A stretch of DNA of 20,226 nucleotides from a virus. A model generated the notes under the pieces. It was not told where the DNA came from, searched no databases, and saw nothing but the letters and a program-made list of their open reading frames with translations. Below, in pieces: positions 1,221-7,635 of the stretch; position 1 is the first letter of the stretch; every line of letters starts with the position of its first letter. Made by a program: the position numbers and the translations under genes. Where the stretch lies: positions 1-20,226 of IMG/VR virus record IMGVR_UViG_3300034418_004469. One strand, 5' to 3'.

Positions 1221-3413
1221 ATGAACAATTTATGTCAACTAGCATTAGCTAACGGAGGCTCTGTCAATTATCTTATAATCCCAGGAAATATTACTGAAGG
1301 TCTAGGTCTTACTAATCCATCTATCTATTATAGTGATGGATTATATACATTAAACCTAAGACACGTTCAATATGCACTATATCATAGTGAGAATGAACAA
1401 AAGTACCAGACTCCCTGGGGTCCTCTAGCATATCTTAACCCAGAAGATGACGTAACTCTTAGAACTACAAACTATGTTTGTTATCTAGATCCTAATACTT
1501 TAGCAATTGATAGTCACTATAAAGTAGATACATCTAAGTTAGATGTGACTCCAGTATGGGAATTTATTGGATTGGAAGATGCAAGAATTGCATATTGGAA
1601 TGATAAGTTCTATCTCACAGGTGTACGTAGAGATACTAAAACAGATGGTGAAGGAAGAATGGAACTATCTGTAATTGATAATAATGCTAAAGAAACTGAT
1701 AGATATAGAATAGAACCTCCTACACATTCTTATTGTGAAAAGAACTGGATGCCTATTCTTGACATGCCGTACCATTATGTTAAATGGACTAACCCTACAG
1801 AAGTAGTAAAAGTAGATCCTAAAAAAGGTACCTCAGTTTCAGTAAAGATTGTTGAGCAAGATGTCACTTTTCCTAGAGATATTAGAGGTGGATCCCAAGT
1901 TATTACATATGGTGATTACTATGTAGCCCTTACACATGAGGTAGACCTATGGTTTAATGAACAAGGAAAGAAAGATGCTCATTATTATCACAGATTTATT
2001 GTATGGGATAAAGACTGGAAGATAGTTCATTATTCTCCAGAGTTTAAGTTTATGACAGGAAATATTGAGTTCTCCTGTGGTTTAGCATATGATGGTGATA
2101 GTTTTATTATCCCATTTGGTTTTCAGGACTCTACGGCCTTTATTTTAAAACTTCCTGTCACAGTTTTTAACCAAATATGTGACATACCAGAGACAGAAGT
2201 AAAGCCAATTACTAGAGGCATAACACCATCTAAGTTAGAAAAGTTCATCAATGACCCATATAATGCATCAAAAGCATTTGATATGGGTAACTATTACTTT
2301 ACTAATTTACACTATGCATCTGCAATGTCATTCTTTTTAAGAGCTGCAGAATACAGCAAGAATGATGAACTAACTTATGATTCATTAATTATGGTTGCTA
2401 AGTCTTTATCTGCATTAGGTAGAAGAAAAGTAACTGAGTTAGGTCTATGGCAAAATGCTATTGCTTTTGAACCAACAAGACCAGATGCATACTTACATAT
2501 AAGTGAGTATCATGAGCAAATGAAAAACTATCATCAATCTTATTCACATGCTGTAATGGGATTACACTTTACAGAAGTAGGTAGTACTCATTACTGGGAA
2601 CTTATGTTCCAAAAAGCAGTTGCTGCATGGTGGATTGGTAGAGGTAAAGAAGCAAGAGATACATTTGCATATCTTGCTGACAATGCAAAGAATCTTACAG
2701 AAAAGTACCAAAAATTGGTACAAACTAATATTACATCATTAGGTTCAGGACCAGATCCATTCCTTAGATACCATAAAGGATTCTATGATCAACTAAGATA
2801 TAAGTTTCCAGGAGCAGAAAAGATTGAGAAAAACTATTCCCAGACATACCAAGATATGTTTGTTCTAACAATGCTTAATGGTAAAAGAAATGGAACTTAT
2901 TTTGAAATTGGTTCAGCAGACCCATACTATGGTAGTAACTCAGCTTTATTAGAAGAATTTGGTTGGACAGGAACATCTTTAGAAATTAAAGAAGATGAGG
3001 TAACTAAATTTAATAAAGTAAGAAAGAATAAATCTACATTAGCAGATGCTACTAAGTTTGATTATAGTATTCTTAAAGGTCACATAGATTACTTACAAGT
3101 AGACTGTGAACCACCAAGCACAACATTTGACATTCTTAAAATGATTCCATTTGAACAGTGTACATTTGGTGTAATAACATTTGAACATGATTACTATGCT
3201 GATATTACAAGATCTTATAGGGAGTTAGGAAGACATTATCTTTTATCAAAAGGATATGTACTTGTAGCAAGTAATATAGCACCTAATGATTCTAGTGCAT
3301 ATGAAGACTGGTACGTGCATCCTAAGTATGTTGATGATAAAATACTTAAGATAATGCTCGCAGCTGATAACACAGTTAAAAATGCAGAGAAATATATGCT
3401 AGGAATGTTATAA
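1221..3413 (+). CDS. Three-part protein: GH130-like beta-propeller, TPR-like helical middle, FkbM-type methyltransferase
   Basis: The protein is 730 residues long. Residues about 20-320 look like a five-bladed propeller of the GH130 (beta-mannoside phosphorylase/hydrolase) type, with blade motifs NPSIYYSDGLYTLNLR (32-47), GLEDARIAYWNDKFYLTG (117-134), EKNWMPI (173-179) and RGGSQVI (222-228). Residues about 340-510 are helical with TPR-like pairs, such as AFDMGNYYFTNLHYASAMSF. Residues about 538-705 resemble the FkbM SAM-dependent methyltransferase family: SQTYQDMFVL (540-549), YFEIGSADP (560-568), a GWTGTSLEI segment (581-589) and DYLQVDCE (623-630). The propeller could bind or cut a glycan and the FkbM domain methylate a sugar. 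A role in modifying virion or host-surface glycans is inference. The gene has its own promoter-like box and lies between the fibre and lysis genes. There is no signal peptide, so the action is cytoplasmic or on the virion. Confidence 0.7.
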   Translation: MNNLCQLALANGGSVNYLIIPGNITEGLGLTNPSIYYSDGLYTLNLRHVQYALYHSENEQKYQTPWGPLAYLNPEDDVTLRTTNYVCYLDPNTLAIDSHYKVDTSKLDVTPVWEFIGLEDARIAYWNDKFYLTGVRRDTKTDGEGRMELSVIDNNAKETDRYRIEPPTHSYCEKNWMPILDMPYHYVKWTNPTEVVKVDPKKGTSVSVKIVEQDVTFPRDIRGGSQVITYGDYYVALTHEVDLWFNEQGKKDAHYYHRFIVWDKDWKIVHYSPEFKFMTGNIEFSCGLAYDGDSFIIPFGFQDSTAFILKLPVTVFNQICDIPETEVKPITRGITPSKLEKFINDPYNASKAFDMGNYYFTNLHYASAMSFFLRAAEYSKNDELTYDSLIMVAKSLSALGRRKVTELGLWQNAIAFEPTRPDAYLHISEYHEQMKNYHQSYSHAVMGLHFTEVGSTHYWELMFQKAVAAWWIGRGKEARDTFAYLADNAKNLTEKYQKLVQTNITSLGSGPDPFLRYHKGFYDQLRYKFPGAEKIEKNYSQTYQDMFVLTMLNGKRNGTYFEIGSADPYYGSNSALLEEFGWTGTSLEIKEDEVTKFNKVRKNKSTLADATKFDYSILKGHIDYLQVDCEPPSTTFDILKMIPFEQCTFGVITFEHDYYADITRSYRELGRHYLLSKGYVLVASNIAPNDSSAYEDWYVHPKYVDDKILKIMLAADNTVKNAEKYMLGML

Positions 3414-3433: not shown

Positions 3434-3940
3434 ATGAAGTATATACATATATCACGGATTAATCTTTCAACAGTATTGCAGGTATGTCTAATAGTGATGT
3501 GCCTGTTTCTACTTATGAGAAAACCTAAGCAGGTTTATCCAATAAGTAAGCAGAAAACTATAGAAAGAAGAATAGAAGGTAAAGAGACTATTATTAAGGA
3601 ACAAGGTAAAGTAATTGACAACAGTAAATCAATTATAGCTCAACTTAATAATGGTCTTTCTGATTTACAGGCTCAACTTGAGGAAGTAAAAAATACTAGA
3701 GATACCATCAATATCATCCAGATTCAGGATACAATGATCCATGTACTTTATAAAAGAGACAAGGAAAAAGATGCTATTATAGCAGCTCAGGACACTATTA
3801 TACAAGCCCAGAGATATGTTATAAATTCAAAAGATACAATTATAGCAACTCAAGCCTTTGATTTAAAAAGAATAAAAAGACAGAGAAACCTTTCAATACT
3901 ATTGAATGGAATATTAACTACAGGTATAATTATCAAATAA
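3434..3940 (+). CDS. Single-TM coiled-coil protein, inner-membrane-spanin (Rz)-like
   Basis: The 168-residue protein has a short N-terminus, one membrane segment at about residues 11-29 (STVLQVCLIVMCLFLLM) and a long coiled coil from about 38 to 150. It ends in a hydrophobic segment (153-167). The C-terminal half repeats a DTII or DAII pattern (residues about 114, 121 and 135), so the rod is built of short repeats. An N-terminal anchor plus a long periplasmic coiled coil is the architecture of Rz-type i-spanins, which fuse the inner and outer membranes at lysis. Its place in the block with holin-like and endolysin genes supports this, but no outer-membrane partner with a lipobox is evident nearby. 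The TAA at its end overlaps the next ATG (3938-3942). Confidence 0.55.
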   Translation: MKYIHISRINLSTVLQVCLIVMCLFLLMRKPKQVYPISKQKTIERRIEGKETIIKEQGKVIDNSKSIIAQLNNGLSDLQAQLEEVKNTRDTINIIQIQDTMIHVLYKRDKEKDAIIAAQDTIIQAQRYVINSKDTIIATQAFDLKRIKRQRNLSILLNGILTTGIIIK

Positions 3941-4239
3941 TGGACAATTCAACTTTAACCATAATAATCTTTATATGTTCAGGAATATTAGGATTATTTG
4001 GATTCTTTCTTAAGACAGCTTATAATGATGCAAGAAGAGATATAGATTTACTTTTTTCATCTGATCAAAAGAAAGCAGAAGATCTAGGTAAGCTCAAAGG
4101 AAAGATTGAGTTAGTAGAACAAGAAGCACGTCTCAAATATCAGGCCATACAAGAGCAAACTCAACTTGAGATAAAAAACTTAGCAAGAAGTGTTGCTGAA
4201 CTATCTGAAGCAATCAAAAGAATTGTACTTGAAAAATAA
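3940..4239 (+). CDS. Small single-TM coiled-coil membrane protein of the lysis block
   Basis: The 99-residue protein has an N-terminal membrane segment at about residues 7-25 (TIIIFICSGILGLFGFFL) and a charged coiled coil from about 30 to 98. Architecture and size are like small phage membrane proteins of the haemolysin XhlA or spanin-accessory type. Start and stop overlap both neighbours by TAATG, so translation is probably coupled. It could pair through its coiled coil with the upstream spanin-like protein. The lysis role is inferred from context; the specific family is not recognised. Confidence 0.5.
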   Translation: MDNSTLTIIIFICSGILGLFGFFLKTAYNDARRDIDLLFSSDQKKAEDLGKLKGKIELVEQEARLKYQAIQEQTQLEIKNLARSVAELSEAIKRIVLEK

Positions 4240-4343
4240 TGAACGAGTTATTTAAATCTAAAGAGTTTAAACAATTACCATTTATCCATAGAGTTTGGAT
4301 TAGACTTAAAATTGCTTTTTTTGAAACAATATCTATGTTATGA
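4239..4343 (+). CDS. 34-residue basic, amphipathic peptide coupled to both neighbours
   Basis: The ATG at 4239 overlaps the previous stop (TAATG, 4237-4241). The frame ends at TGA 4341-4343, which overlaps the next ATG (ATGA, 4340-4343). The product begins MNELFKSKEFKQLPFIHRVW and continues as an amphipathic aromatic-rich helix (residues 18-34). The perfect fit between two overlapping genes argues for a real gene. Another short protein at 7158-7316 has a loosely similar basic/aromatic segment. The function is unknown; membrane-surface association is plausible. Confidence 0.55.
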   Translation: MNELFKSKEFKQLPFIHRVWIRLKIAFFETISML

Positions 4344-4528
4344 AAAATATAAGTTCAATCAGAATGGTTTATGCATTAGTATGTATTTTACTATTTGTAG
4401 CTTCAGCTTGTAATTTTTGGCCACTAGTAATATTTATTGCAGTCATGCTCTTTATAGGGTCAATAACAACTTTGTGCCCATCTAAATGGTTTTTTGAGAA
4501 ACTAGGATTTGGTAAATCTAAACTTTAA
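4340..4528 (+). CDS. Two-TM small membrane protein, DUF2892-like
   Basis: The 62-residue protein has two hydrophobic segments at about residues 9-24 and 27-43, then a CPSKWFFEKLGFG segment (about 46-58). A pair of helices followed by a Cys-Pro and a short amphipathic end ending in LG resembles the DUF2892 membrane domain found alone or in YgaP-type proteins; this is recognised by pattern only. Its stop overlaps the start of the histidine kinase (TAATG, 4526-4530), so the two are probably made together. It could be a partner of the kinase in the membrane or an antiholin/holin-like protein; neither is shown. Confidence 0.5.
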   Translation: MKNISSIRMVYALVCILLFVASACNFWPLVIFIAVMLFIGSITTLCPSKWFFEKLGFGKSKL

Positions 4529-5412
4529 TGGCAGCACTAGATGGCATATCAATTAGATCCAGAATTTGTCTAGGATGTGCCACACTTATAATGCTTGTGT
4601 TCTTTATATTTAAAACACTTGTAGTATTTAGATATATACATCATAGCACATTTACTCATTACTTTGAATGGCTATCTGTAATAATATTCATGCCCCCATT
4701 CTTTATTGTAGTTAAAGAGTTTCTTGAACAGAAACAAATGACACGTAATGATTTAGATAAAAAAAATATCTATCTTGAACATGCAGCTAAAATTATAAGA
4801 CATGATATGCACTCTGGTATTAATACTTATCTACCTAGGGGTATATCTTCACTTAAGAGAAGATTAACACAAGAAGATATTGATTCATTAAAAATTAAAT
4901 CTCCATTACAGTTAATTGAGGATGGTTTATCACATGCTAGAAAAGTATATGCAGGTGTATATGAGTTTACTAATCTTGTAAAGTCTGGATCTGAAATGAG
5001 TAAGAAGATGTGTAATGTACACCATATTCTTGAAGATTATTTAAAACTTACAGCATATAAAAATTCAGTTATTCTTGATAGTTCACTTGAAATAGATTTA
5101 GAGCTTAATGAAGCACTTTTCTGCACAGCTCTGGATAATCTTATCAGAAATGGTTTAAAATACAATGACAGCCCAACTAAATGGGTTAAAATATACATAG
5201 AAAATAAATACCTCTATATTGAAGATAATGGAAGAGGAATAACAAATAATGAATTTATAGAATTATCAAAACCATACGTTAGAAAAATAGGACAAAAAGA
5301 AGAAGGTTCTGGATTAGGTTTAAATATCTGCAATGAAATTTTAAGAGAACATAATTTCAGTATTGAAGCTGAAAAAACTAATACCGGTACTAAAATAAAA
5401 ATTAAGATATGA
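4528..5412 (+). CDS. Membrane-bound sensor histidine kinase
   Basis: The 294-residue protein has two membrane helices (about 12-35 and 44-63) joined by a loop of only about 8-10 residues, so it has no periplasmic sensor domain and resembles intramembrane-sensing kinases. A linker (64-85) leads to an H-box with His92 in IIRHDMHSGI. The ATP-binding domain has an N-box (DNLIRNGLKYND, N204 and N208), a G1 box (EDNGRGI, D233, G235, G237) and a G2 box (GSGLGL, 260-265). All residues needed for ATP binding and autophosphorylation are present. The start overlaps the stop of the upstream gene, and the end overlaps the next ATG (ATGA, 5409-5412), where the cognate regulator begins. A phage-encoded kinase among lysis genes is unusual. 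The signal is unknown; membrane state or superinfection is inference. Confidence 0.85.
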   Translation: MAALDGISIRSRICLGCATLIMLVFFIFKTLVVFRYIHHSTFTHYFEWLSVIIFMPPFFIVVKEFLEQKQMTRNDLDKKNIYLEHAAKIIRHDMHSGINTYLPRGISSLKRRLTQEDIDSLKIKSPLQLIEDGLSHARKVYAGVYEFTNLVKSGSEMSKKMCNVHHILEDYLKLTAYKNSVILDSSLEIDLELNEALFCTALDNLIRNGLKYNDSPTKWVKIYIENKYLYIEDNGRGITNNEFIELSKPYVRKIGQKEEGSGLGLNICNEILREHNFSIEAEKTNTGTKIKIKI

Positions 5413-5846
5413 TAGAGACATTAATGTTAATAGATGATGAGAACTTATTCCACCTTGTATTTGAGGATGCATGTTCTATATTAGATATGGCACTTTCTAT
5501 AGAAGCATTAGACAGTTCTGATGAAGCAGATAGAATGTTCCGTAAATGGTTTCCTGAAGACCCTAATCATGAGAGACCACAGTGTGTATTTGTAGATTTA
5601 AATATTATAGGTTCATCTTTTGATGGCATAGAAATGATTAGAAAAATTAATCATGAATATGGGAATGGATGTGTGATAGGAATTATATCATCTTCACAAG
5701 ATCAAGTAGAAATTGAAAAAGCTAAAGCAGTTGGTGCTCAATTTTGGATTATTAAATCTGATGAGATTGAACCTAGACTAGAAGAATTTAAAAAAGATTA
5801 TGAAGGGTATAGAACAAAATCATTACCTTTCAAAGTTTATAGATAA
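5409..5846 (+). CDS. Single-domain response regulator (receiver only)
   Basis: The 145-residue protein is one receiver domain. The Mg-binding acidic pair is D9-D10 (LMLIDDE), the phosphoacceptor is D63 (VFVDLNI), the switch Ser is S94 or S95 (GIISSS) and the conserved Lys is K116 (WIIKSDE). Spacing of these residues matches CheY-type receivers. A basic tail of about 15 residues (YRTKSLPFKVYR) follows. There is no DNA-binding or enzymatic output domain, so it must act by protein contact or as a phosphorelay step. It overlaps the kinase gene by ATGA and the following coiled-coil membrane protein by TAATG. The kinase is its likely phosphodonor, and the next gene product is a candidate target by position. 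Confidence 0.85.
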   Translation: MIETLMLIDDENLFHLVFEDACSILDMALSIEALDSSDEADRMFRKWFPEDPNHERPQCVFVDLNIIGSSFDGIEMIRKINHEYGNGCVIGIISSSQDQVEIEKAKAVGAQFWIIKSDEIEPRLEEFKKDYEGYRTKSLPFKVYR

Positions 5847-6394
5847 TGTTATTACCAAAAGCAGTTAGAGAAGGGTTATTAAAAATAGCTAAAGAAAAGA
5901 AACTCTATTTAGAGGGTAATCTTCTTAAGATAATTGAACCTGGAACTGATGATTCTGCTTTTGCTGAATATCTAAAACTCTGTAAAGAAAGAGATATTTC
6001 TTCTAGAAAGAAAAGATTGGAGGTAACTAAACAAGTTCAACAAAAAAATAAAGAACTTGAAGTTGCAATGGAAGAGAATAAAGTTCTAATGTTAGATCTT
6101 AAAATAGCTCTTGAAGAAGCTGAAAAATTAAGGGATGCAGCAGTAGAAGATTTAGACCTTTTACAGAAAAGAACTCAGTTTGAACTAATTAGCACAATAG
6201 TTAAAGTAGCACTAGCAATTATAATTAGTATAGGTTTTGTAGTGACTATTATCTATTTATTTGCTATATTATATAATAAGGACACCCAAATAATAGGTTC
6301 CACATGGAGTAATCTTTTGGGTATATTACTAACCAATGCATTCTCCATAGTAGGTACTATTATGGGTGTTAAGTATGCAACAGAAAATAAATAA
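5846..6394 (+). CDS. Coiled-coil protein with two C-terminal TM helices, possible output of the two-component system
   Basis: The 182-residue protein has a basic N-terminal region (1-50), a charged coiled coil (about 52-110) and two strong membrane helices at about 115-142 and 156-175, with a short NKDTQIIGSTWSN loop between. The N-terminus is likely cytoplasmic, within reach of the response regulator encoded just upstream with a TAATG overlap. The holin-like gene starts three bases after its stop. Two TM helices plus a cytoplasmic coiled coil could make it a holin, an antiholin or a signalling scaffold. No family is recognised; the link to the two-component pair is inferred from gene coupling. 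Confidence 0.6.
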   Translation: MLLPKAVREGLLKIAKEKKLYLEGNLLKIIEPGTDDSAFAEYLKLCKERDISSRKKRLEVTKQVQQKNKELEVAMEENKVLMLDLKIALEEAEKLRDAAVEDLDLLQKRTQFELISTIVKVALAIIISIGFVVTIIYLFAILYNKDTQIIGSTWSNLLGILLTNAFSIVGTIMGVKYATENK

Positions 6395-6396
6395 TT

Positions 6397-6618
6397 ATGA
6401 AATTTTTAAGAGAAATTTTTCAAGATGAGAACGGTGTGTATTCATCAAAAAGATTTACAGGAATACTATGTGTATTAGCACTAGTAACTTCTTTAGTATT
6501 AAACACATTTACACATGGGGATATTAAACCATCAGATGCTTTAGTTAATGCAGTAGCATTGTTTTCATTTGGTGCTTTAGGTCTTACATCATTAGATAAG
6601 TGGAGTAAAAGAAAATAA
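6397..6618 (+). CDS. Holin-like small membrane protein
   Basis: The 73-residue protein has a polar N-terminus with DENGVYSSKRFTG (10-22), membrane helices at about 20-37 and 48-64, and a basic C-terminus (DKWSKRK). A two-TM protein of about 70 residues with a charged tail, directly before the endolysin, is the classical holin layout. The ENG-x-x-SSKRF start is one I associate with small holin-like proteins of Bacteroidota phages, though I could not check this. A holin would permeabilise the inner membrane and trigger lysis. There are 21 bases before the endolysin start. Confidence 0.6.
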   Translation: MKFLREIFQDENGVYSSKRFTGILCVLALVTSLVLNTFTHGDIKPSDALVNAVALFSFGALGLTSLDKWSKRK

Positions 6619-6639: not shown

Positions 6640-7158
6640 ATGAGTCATAATTTTTTAAAAGAAGAAAAATCCCCACAGATATTAGTTCAAGCTGTAAAGA
6701 TGCTTGGTACTAAAGAGATTGTAGGTAAAGAACATAATCCTGTAATTATGGGGTGGGCTAAAGAACTTGGATTACAAAAAGTATATACTGCAGATGAGAT
6801 TCCATGGTGTGGTTTAGCAGTAGCTTATGCAGCACATAAAGCAGGAGTACAAGTAGTAGATAAACCACTATGGGCACTTAACTGGGCTAAGTTTGGTAAC
6901 AAAGTTGATGAACCTATGTTAGGTGATGTACTCACTTTTAAGAGAAATGGTGGTGGACATGTAGGAATATATGTTGGAGAAGATAAAGATTGCTACCATG
7001 TACTTGGAGGAAACCAAGGAAATGCAATGACTGTAACTAGAATATTAAAATCAAGATTGTATCAAGCAAGAAGAACAGCATGGAAAATTGCTCAACCAGC
7101 AAATGTTCGTAAGATATTTTTGGATGCAAAAGGTGCAATCAGTAAAAATGAAGCATAA
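6640..7158 (+). CDS. Endolysin, TIGR02594/CHAP-like peptidoglycan hydrolase
   Basis: The 172-residue protein resembles the TIGR02594 family of phage CHAP/NlpC-like lysins. The putative catalytic Cys57 lies in PWCGLAVAYAAHKAG (56-70) and the putative catalytic His107 in GGGHVGIYVG (104-113). The conserved VLGGNQGNAMTVTR segment is at 121-134. Such enzymes cleave amide bonds in peptidoglycan. There is no signal peptide, so export would depend on a holin, consistent with the holin-like gene 21 bases upstream. The length is normal for a single catalytic domain with a short basic C-terminal extension. The TAA overlaps the next ATG (7156-7160). Confidence 0.85.
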   Translation: MSHNFLKEEKSPQILVQAVKMLGTKEIVGKEHNPVIMGWAKELGLQKVYTADEIPWCGLAVAYAAHKAGVQVVDKPLWALNWAKFGNKVDEPMLGDVLTFKRNGGGHVGIYVGEDKDCYHVLGGNQGNAMTVTRILKSRLYQARRTAWKIAQPANVRKIFLDAKGAISKNEA

Positions 7159-7585: not shown

Positions 7586-7605
7586 TACAAATTAAACTAC
7601 TAGAG

Positions 7606-7635
7606 TCCAGGTACTTTCAGTGCCTGGATTTTTTT
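7606..7635 (+). terminator. Rho-independent terminator ending the lysis block
   Basis: Stem TCCAGGTAC (7606-7614) pairs with GTGCCTGGA (7620-7628). It has nine pairs including one G-U, a loop TTTCA and a run of seven T (7629-7635). It lies 21 bases after the stop of the small basic protein and about 30 bases before the promoter-like box of the next unit. Confidence 0.85.

Follow-up and report, generated by a model that had tools for sequence, protein, structure and literature searches.

The DNA analyzed here (the window) is a 20,226-base IMG/VR virus record, IMGVR_UViG_3300034418_004469. Its capsid protein matches the Pfam model Crass_capsid (2.7e-31), and its large terminase shares about 25% identity with crAss-like terminases and 23% with those of Flavobacterium phages; on these grounds, the window is assigned to a crAss-like phage. 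On the plus strand it encodes a histidine kinase (HK) of 294 amino acids (aa) with two predicted transmembrane (TM) helices (4528-5412) and a response regulator (RR) of 145 aa that consists of a receiver without an output domain (5409-5846). An earlier note, made from the sequence alone, had described this pair as a complete two-component system joined by an ATGA overlap inside a phage lysis operon. The pair is real, with Pfam matches for both proteins and hundreds of relatives, and the coordinates of the open reading frames (ORFs) confirm the overlap. That note missed a third conserved gene, the accessory genes, and the sharing of all of these among many phages. The full unit is larger and spans 4239-6394, where TAATG and ATGA overlaps chain five plus-strand ORFs: sORF (34 aa; 4239-4343), whose start overlaps the preceding stop (TAATG) and whose stop overlaps the following start (ATGA); tm62 (62 aa; 4340-4528), which has two hydrophobic stretches by eye and a TAATG overlap with the kinase; the kinase; the receiver; and TMcc (182 aa; 5846-6394), a predicted coiled-coil/TM-hairpin protein and the proposed output or partner of the regulator. 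We suggest, at about even confidence, that this unit may be a two-component system specific to phages, in which the regulator acts on TMcc, a membrane output of its own, to tune lysis.

The kinase passes the cut-off of Pfam HATPase_c (2.3e-14), and the receiver narrowly passes that of Response_reg (2.8e-7; 31.1 bits versus a cut-off of 30.2). Because no Pfam HisKA model matched the kinase, its phospho-acceptor domain is tentatively assigned from an AlphaFold2 model and a Foldseek search. The model (27-row alignment; predicted local distance difference test [pLDDT], 84.6; predicted template modeling score [pTM], 0.68) places helices at 9-33, 41-112, and 124-150, including a helical hairpin, followed by an ATPase fold, and Foldseek retrieved HK853, CpxA, and ZraS at E values of about 1e-9 to 1e-8 with TM-scores near 0.4 to 0.5. 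The first two modeled helices are joined by a loop of about 7 residues, which bears out the claim that the kinase has almost no periplasmic loop. Kinases are classed as intramembrane sensing when they have two TM helices and a loop of under about 25 residues; the window kinase, with two predicted TM helices, a short loop, and no periplasmic domain, is modeled with this layout.

The motif residues listed in the earlier note were all found where it had placed them (H92, N204, N208, D233, G235, G237, G260, G262, and G264 in the kinase; D9, D10, D63, S94, and K116 in the receiver), so that the N, G1, and G2 boxes of the ATPase and the acidic pair, acceptor Asp, Thr/Ser, and Lys of the receiver are intact. 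These catalytic residues are kept in 71/71 complete triples of kinase, receiver, and TMcc, the sole exception being G260 (70/71). By inference, H92 and D63 are the phospho-acceptors, and this conservation of motifs makes it very likely that the module signals by phosphotransfer.

After removal of duplicates, 167 sequences (166 loci and the window) fell into 88 groups, of which 84 had a called receiver and 71 were complete triples. A kinase lies within 4.5 kb of the receiver in 80/84 groups, and so does TMcc, likewise in 80/84. The median pairwise ratio of nonsynonymous to synonymous substitution rates is 0.09 for the receiver (406 usable pairs), 0.20 for the kinase (593), and 0.21 for TMcc (741), the usable pairs being drawn from 2,485 and the rest dropped, mostly as saturated. 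Distance matrices of the three proteins correlate, with Mantel r values of 0.70 for HK-RR, 0.54 for RR-TMcc, and 0.44 for HK-TMcc, against null maxima of 0.25, 0.28, and 0.21, respectively. Given adjacent genes and the Mantel r of 0.70, kinase and regulator qualify as a cognate pair. At the sequence level, the kinase-receiver pair is confirmed as occurring beyond chance and under purifying selection, and the HK-RR-TMcc triple is seen to be inherited together, kept intact, and common to unrelated phages. Divergent copies are under-sampled, because most groups derive from similarity-ranked searches with the receiver and TMcc. One locus (L015:4271-5535) has a kinase split into two overlapping frames of 128 and 304 aa, either by a frameshift or by a sequencing error.

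Searched alone against IMG/VR, the kinase found 19 loci, while the receiver alignment found at least 530 confirmed relatives and the TMcc alignment at least 417; the best 80 relatives of each of the latter two were used further. The window receiver is 67 to 87% identical to nine relatives in A1. As a receiver-independent check, the exact DNA pattern of the kinase H box was searched in IMG/VR and occurred in 103 stretches, 80 of which were listed. This pattern gave 92 new loci, 68 of them not near-identical to earlier ones, and a kinase-motif search of Bacteroidota genomes gave one more. Among these 93 loci, 64 have kinase, receiver, and TMcc, 14 have kinase and receiver, and 15 have the kinase alone. 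All 14 kinase-receiver loci and 10 of the 15 kinase-alone loci end at the locus edge, and three more kinase-alone loci (L220, L223, and L243) have less than 2 kb of downstream sequence; L237 and L250, with more than 5 kb downstream and neither receiver nor TMcc, are real exceptions. Crass_capsid was matched in 7/49 records at E values of up to 1e-3, 6 of them above the cut-off; a missing match says little, since many records are fragments. Several contigs with the kinase motif are 140 to 385 kb long. The diversity of neighboring genes and these contig sizes show that crAss-like phages and others alike carry the module.

Outside viral contigs, the module is nearly absent. In 84,980 bacterial and archaeal species genomes, the receiver alignment had two confirmed loci, both in metagenome bins; in one (L165), two of four tested neighbors match PHROGs (PhoH and a nuclease), and in the other (L166), one of six does. 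The kinase motif was found in 1/395 Bacteroidota genomes, and TMcc in 1/395, namely, the L166 bin. In 50,697 GenBank phage records, neither receiver nor TMcc had a match, and the kinase matched 10 records, all at less than 30% identity. We are highly confident that the module is real, conserved, and nearly confined to phages. A bacterial gene newly acquired by one phage was considered and rejected, because relatives number in the hundreds among viral contigs and are almost missing from cellular genomes. It is rather unlikely, in our judgment, that the kinase or receiver rewires its host by cross talk with host two-component proteins, such as Bacteroidota regulators of the envelope, secretion, or gliding. 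A receiver lacking an output domain could be a phosphate sink, and phage phiCDHM1 has a kinase without a regulator, as far as the account in PMC3901668 goes. Here, however, the phage brings a matched regulator that codiverges with the kinase (Mantel r, 0.70), and no close host homologue was found in the 84,980 species genomes or the 395 Bacteroidota genomes save in the two binned contigs. Moreover, TMcc is nearly phage confined, so that the phage appears to provide its own output.

The proposed role in lysis draws on the genes around the module. Neighboring families, assigned through representatives, include Phage_holin_4_1, PG_binding_1 with Amidase_2, Peptidase_M15_3, Glyco_hydro_19, DUF5675, a relative of a PHROG endolysin, and TIGR02594. 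Whole records were searched with Pfam lysis families in 49 cases (leaving out the L166 bin and adding the window enzyme by hand), and at least one match was found in 44 of them. The nearest lysis-family gene lies within 3 kb of the module in 35 of these 44 records (within 1 kb in 33 of the 35) versus 9.6 expected by random placement. The count is 34/43 without the hand-added window enzyme, 28/33 when DUF5675 is not counted, 22/29 (6.1 expected) when 15 sibling records are dropped by hand, and 10/18 (2.1 expected) in records of at least 50 kb. By nonredundant groups, one of seven lysis families lies within 3 kb in 53/84, in all 53 on the strand of the module, and among the 46 groups with 3 kb on both sides, 29 have a lysis family nearby. 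A lysis family is also near in 23 of 41 further kinase-motif clusters, in three of the 23 only on the opposite strand, and a shared peptidoglycan-binding domain may account for some of these matches.

On a module tree of 71 kinase-core and receiver sequences, ten neighbor labels, one of them a "none" that also covers short contigs, require no fewer than 25 changes, where the least possible number is 9 and the shuffled mean is 41.0, so that the labels are also clustered; Amidase_2 requires 6 changes, DUF5675 requires 5, and M15_3 requires 3. The module and its lysis neighbors thus appear to have been re-paired more than once. The nearness in 35/44 records, the 53/84 groups, and the repeated exchange of several unrelated lysis families along the tree together support a functional tie of the module to lysis, and control of lysis is our leading reading, with roughly equal chances of being right or wrong.

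In the window itself, the flanking features between 3434 and 7632 all lie on the plus strand. The module is followed by TM73 (73 aa; 6397-6618), a holin candidate with two hydrophobic stretches by eye; its family is no more than two genes from 30 of the 51 lysis-enzyme genes seen. Next comes a probable endolysin of the TIGR02594 or CHAP-NlpC type (6640-7158), which is above the cut-off of NCBIfam TIGR02594 (6.2e-29); its best PHROG match is a baseplate hub or tail lysozyme (7.2e-29), and an endolysin family follows at 6.4e-8. A terminator-like hairpin with a 14-pair stem and a T run (7602-7632) is the likely end of the operon; terminator-like sites number 3 in 5 kb, compared with 1.2 (standard deviation, 1.1) in shuffles. 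Upstream of the module lie a coiled-coil protein of 168 aa with one N-terminal hydrophobic stretch by eye (3434-3940), possibly an inner-membrane spanin by a weak match to PHROG Rz-like spanin (E = 0.084), and a holin/spanin-like protein of 99 aa (3940-4239) with an N-terminal hydrophobic stretch and a helix, which has weak PHROG matches to a lipoprotein (0.0012), a holin (0.024), and Rz-like spanin (0.06). Of the spanin-like, holin-like, and endolysin genes between which the earlier note had placed the pair, the lysis enzyme is a solid TIGR02594 match; the spanin calls are weak (PHROG E values of 0.06 to 0.08), and the holin-like gene matches no holin model. Farther upstream (1221-3413), a protein of 730 aa without a Pfam match at an E value of 0.1 looks by eye like an FkbM-type methyltransferase at its C terminus, with a TPR stretch in its middle.

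Several observations weigh against control of lysis. The nearest lysis match is 6 to 72 kb away in 9/44 records (L003, L005, L009, L014, L068, L086, L093, L128, and L154), among them the crAss-like genomes L003 and L068; 5/49 records have no match in the searched lysis families, and in 17 of the 46 groups for which 3 kb is available on each side, all seven families are missing from the vicinity. Some modules lie upstream of a head or packaging gene (the L009/L086/L093 type) and others near a baseplate-wedge gene (the L111/L113/L120 type). DUF5675 has no proven lysis role, and neither TMcc nor TM73 matched a holin or antiholin in Pfam, PHROG, or NCBIfam. The lysis count also favors nearness, because the families were chosen from module neighborhoods. 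As a check on this bias, three families not taken from the neighborhoods were searched in the 49 records. GH108 was found in 0/49, an uninformative result since its control matched nowhere; Peptidase_M15_4 was found in 2/49, weakly and within open frames of 1166 aa about 10 kb away; and Phage_lysozyme was found in 2/49, about 12 kb (L042) and about 5 kb (L096) from the module. With these families counted, 45/49 records have a match, and the number with a match within 3 kb stays at 35. The earlier note held that random placement apart from lysis genes would refute its proposal; such placement is not what most records show (35/44 within 3 kb versus 9.6 expected); nor is the linkage universal, with 9/44 far. 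Adjacency to endolysin and holin genes is thus conserved without being universal.

An alternative that we consider unlikely is that the module is a late-expressed superinfection-exclusion system or envelope guard, whose kinase senses a second phage injection or envelope stress and whose TMcc blocks entry or depolarizes the membrane. Its place near lysis genes would then reflect the tolerance of late regions for cargo. Most components are predicted to be, or resemble, small membrane proteins, unrelated phages share the module, and some lineages hold it among late structural rather than lysis genes, all of which would fit. However, same-strand adjacency to differing lysis families (53/53 groups) exceeds what a generic cargo site would lead one to expect, and cargo genes in a tolerant region should more often have decayed. 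PADLOC defense models matched 0/8 proteins at an E value of 0.1, which also speaks against it; on the same result, a known anti-phage defense system was rejected.

The input side of the kinase differs among relatives. In the window, it lacks any added sensor domain. Elsewhere, the kinase carries one PAS domain (L012, L018, and L066), a GAF and two PAS domains (L016 and L136), or three PAS domains (L166). By length alone, the 71 triples comprise 28 short kinases, 40 of one-PAS size, and 3 long ones, and these classes change 9 or more times along the tree. An intron or a disruption was rejected as the cause of these length differences, the inserts being in-frame PAS/GAF input domains. Two kinases of the family precede a single receiver and TMcc at L016:6564-11649, and about 2 kb between kinase and receiver in L178, L185, L192, and L210 leaves room for a second kinase.

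The genes upstream of the kinase vary as well. Among 69 labeled triples, they are sORF and tm62 in 32, family 30 (50 aa) in 12, tm62 alone in 6, tm62 and family 30 in 2, sORF alone in 1, and none of these in 16. The sORF family (pattern, approximately LEDIFKTEEFKSLPxxKRxWIRLKVAFFxTIxM) had no match in a Pfam search, and in 37/72 groups its hidden Markov model has a match no more than 1.1 kb upstream of the kinase. The sORF domain also ends a protein of 124 aa at L041:17679-18053, far from the kinase, and extended versions of about 70 aa occur in L004, L038, and L040; apparently, it is a domain capable of fusion. The tm62 family is present in 86/167 sequences (duplicates still included), and tm62 matches YgaP-like_TM (PF11127) at 1.9e-4, under the cut-off. 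A family of tiny, very basic proteins (about 44 aa; approximately RPGVHAKTKTSKxKNSxNYKKKYRGQGR) is found at L038:8574-8708 and in L073, L092, L095, and L120, sometimes near the module.

A sister lineage, represented by L092, provides a natural swap. Its immediate flanks match those of the window (families 40 and 41 upstream; TM73 and families 51, 52, and 53 downstream), while a different gene occupies the place of sORF and tm62. Receiver and TMcc remain similar to those of the window (85% and 79% identity, respectively), and the kinase is 52% identical. From this difference and the exchanged accessory gene, we infer that accessory gene and kinase may form an input unit and that receiver and TMcc may form a retained output unit; the swap is the best evidence here for the direction of signaling. 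In L101, a crAss-like phage with a gene order like that of L092, the corresponding place directly upstream of the kinase holds a YceI-domain gene (2376-2891; 6.8e-44). YceI proteins bind isoprenoids, and such a partner would suit a membrane-lipid or quinone sensor. L094, with neighbors as in L092, has a YceI-kinase fusion beside a shortened TMcc, which could be an assembly artifact.

The AlphaFold2 model of TMcc (70-row alignment; pLDDT, 84.7; pTM, 0.38) shows a soluble N-terminal part, a helix at 37-142, a short loop, and a helix at 148-180. The long helix or coiled coil runs into a TM helix, and the hydrophobic parts form a TM hairpin by eye. A sequence search of the PDB with TMcc yielded no lead, and Foldseek against viral models (BFVD) gave one match with an E value below 0.001, to an uncharacterized protein of an uncultured tailed phage (48% identity). 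Directly downstream of TMcc in several groups is family 8 (about 179 aa; L126:3352-3888 and 32 other loci), a possible further component without a Pfam or PHROG match.

TMcc might instead assist the kinase as a co-sensor or scaffold, in the way that LiaF serves LiaS, an intramembrane-sensing kinase; the direct target of the regulator would then be a holin such as TM73 or other phage factors. Membrane partners are common among intramembrane kinases, both TMcc and the kinase are modeled as TM-hairpin proteins, and TM73 is near lysis enzymes in many loci. Yet TMcc stays on the regulator side, and both it and the regulator remain similar in cases where the accessory gene and the kinase differ; TM73 lies within 4.5 kb of the regulator in just 33/84 groups; we regard this arrangement as improbable.

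For an output through TMcc, the following sequence of events can be proposed. The kinase, together with its accessory protein, would read membrane or cell state, and PAS/GAF versions would read a cytoplasmic ligand or redox state. The kinase would autophosphorylate at H92 and pass the phosphate to D63 of the regulator, which, having no DNA-binding domain, would act by protein contact, most likely on TMcc. TMcc in turn would raise or lower holin/endolysin action, so that lysis would be advanced or delayed according to cell state. In its widest form, the proposal is that a phage-evolved kinase-receiver-TMcc relay, combining a swappable sensor (short TM, PAS, GAF, or YceI partner) with a conserved membrane output, sets the timing of lysis and is a lysis switch common to crAss-like, other tailed, and large-genome phages; we advance this tentatively and give it somewhat less than an even chance. 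If it is true, phages compute the lysis decision from host or membrane state by a phosphorelay of their own. The module is a concrete gene set open to testing, and a rare complete two-component system with close relatives almost only in viral contigs, in which a natural sensor swap hints at the division into input and output parts. Because it is widespread in metagenomic viral contigs while its receiver and TMcc are unmatched in GenBank phages, it may represent biology that culture collections miss.

The timing of phage lysis is understood as holin/antiholin chemistry. RI and RIII of T4 are phage proteins that delay lysis according to infection state by direct holin binding and without phosphotransfer; for the module, a role in lysis timing is likewise proposed, but through phosphotransfer. 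LytR of the LytSR-LrgAB system is a transcription factor, whereas the regulator here has no output domain. That system is likewise a two-component system, with a holin/antiholin-like pair as its output, but it is bacterial and has a five-TM kinase, compared with a phage-encoded kinase with two predicted TM helices here. Intramembrane-sensing kinases resemble the window version in having two TM helices, a very short loop, no extracytoplasmic sensor domain, and small membrane proteins encoded alongside; their regulators are DNA binding, and many relatives here differ from them in having added PAS or GAF domains. Passages of a published account (PMC8774646) list SaeS, VraS, GraS, and BraS among such kinases and, for Staphylococcus, describe the LytSR kinase as thought to read membrane potential, with a holin/antiholin-like output proposed to control murein hydrolases and cell death.

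That phages have kinase genes is already known: two-component genes have been counted among viral auxiliary genes (in part of PMC9636769), a histidine kinase has been noted in phage bins (in part of PMC6302217), and phiCDHM1 has the agrBDC genes, which include a kinase gene, with an endolysin gene mentioned close to agrD in the primer design (in part of PMC3901668). The phiCDHM1 genes differ from the module in being peptide quorum-sensing genes of one phage, for which the authors propose a host origin and, within the portion of PMC3901668 concerned, describe no response regulator. The divergent cREC receiver domains of jumbo phages are likewise receiver-like domains in phages and, in the relevant part of PMC7824862, never occur in histidine-kinase systems, whereas the receiver here has all catalytic residues and a neighboring kinase. 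In the open-access literature, with most subscription papers and bioRxiv preprints outside this scope, we found no description of the HK-RR-TMcc module, nor crAss-like phages, lysis, and a histidine kinase treated together. Compared with these systems, the module is of a known kind, a two-component system; what appears to be new is its confinement to phages, a receiver-only regulator beside a dedicated membrane protein, swappable inputs, and linkage to lysis genes.

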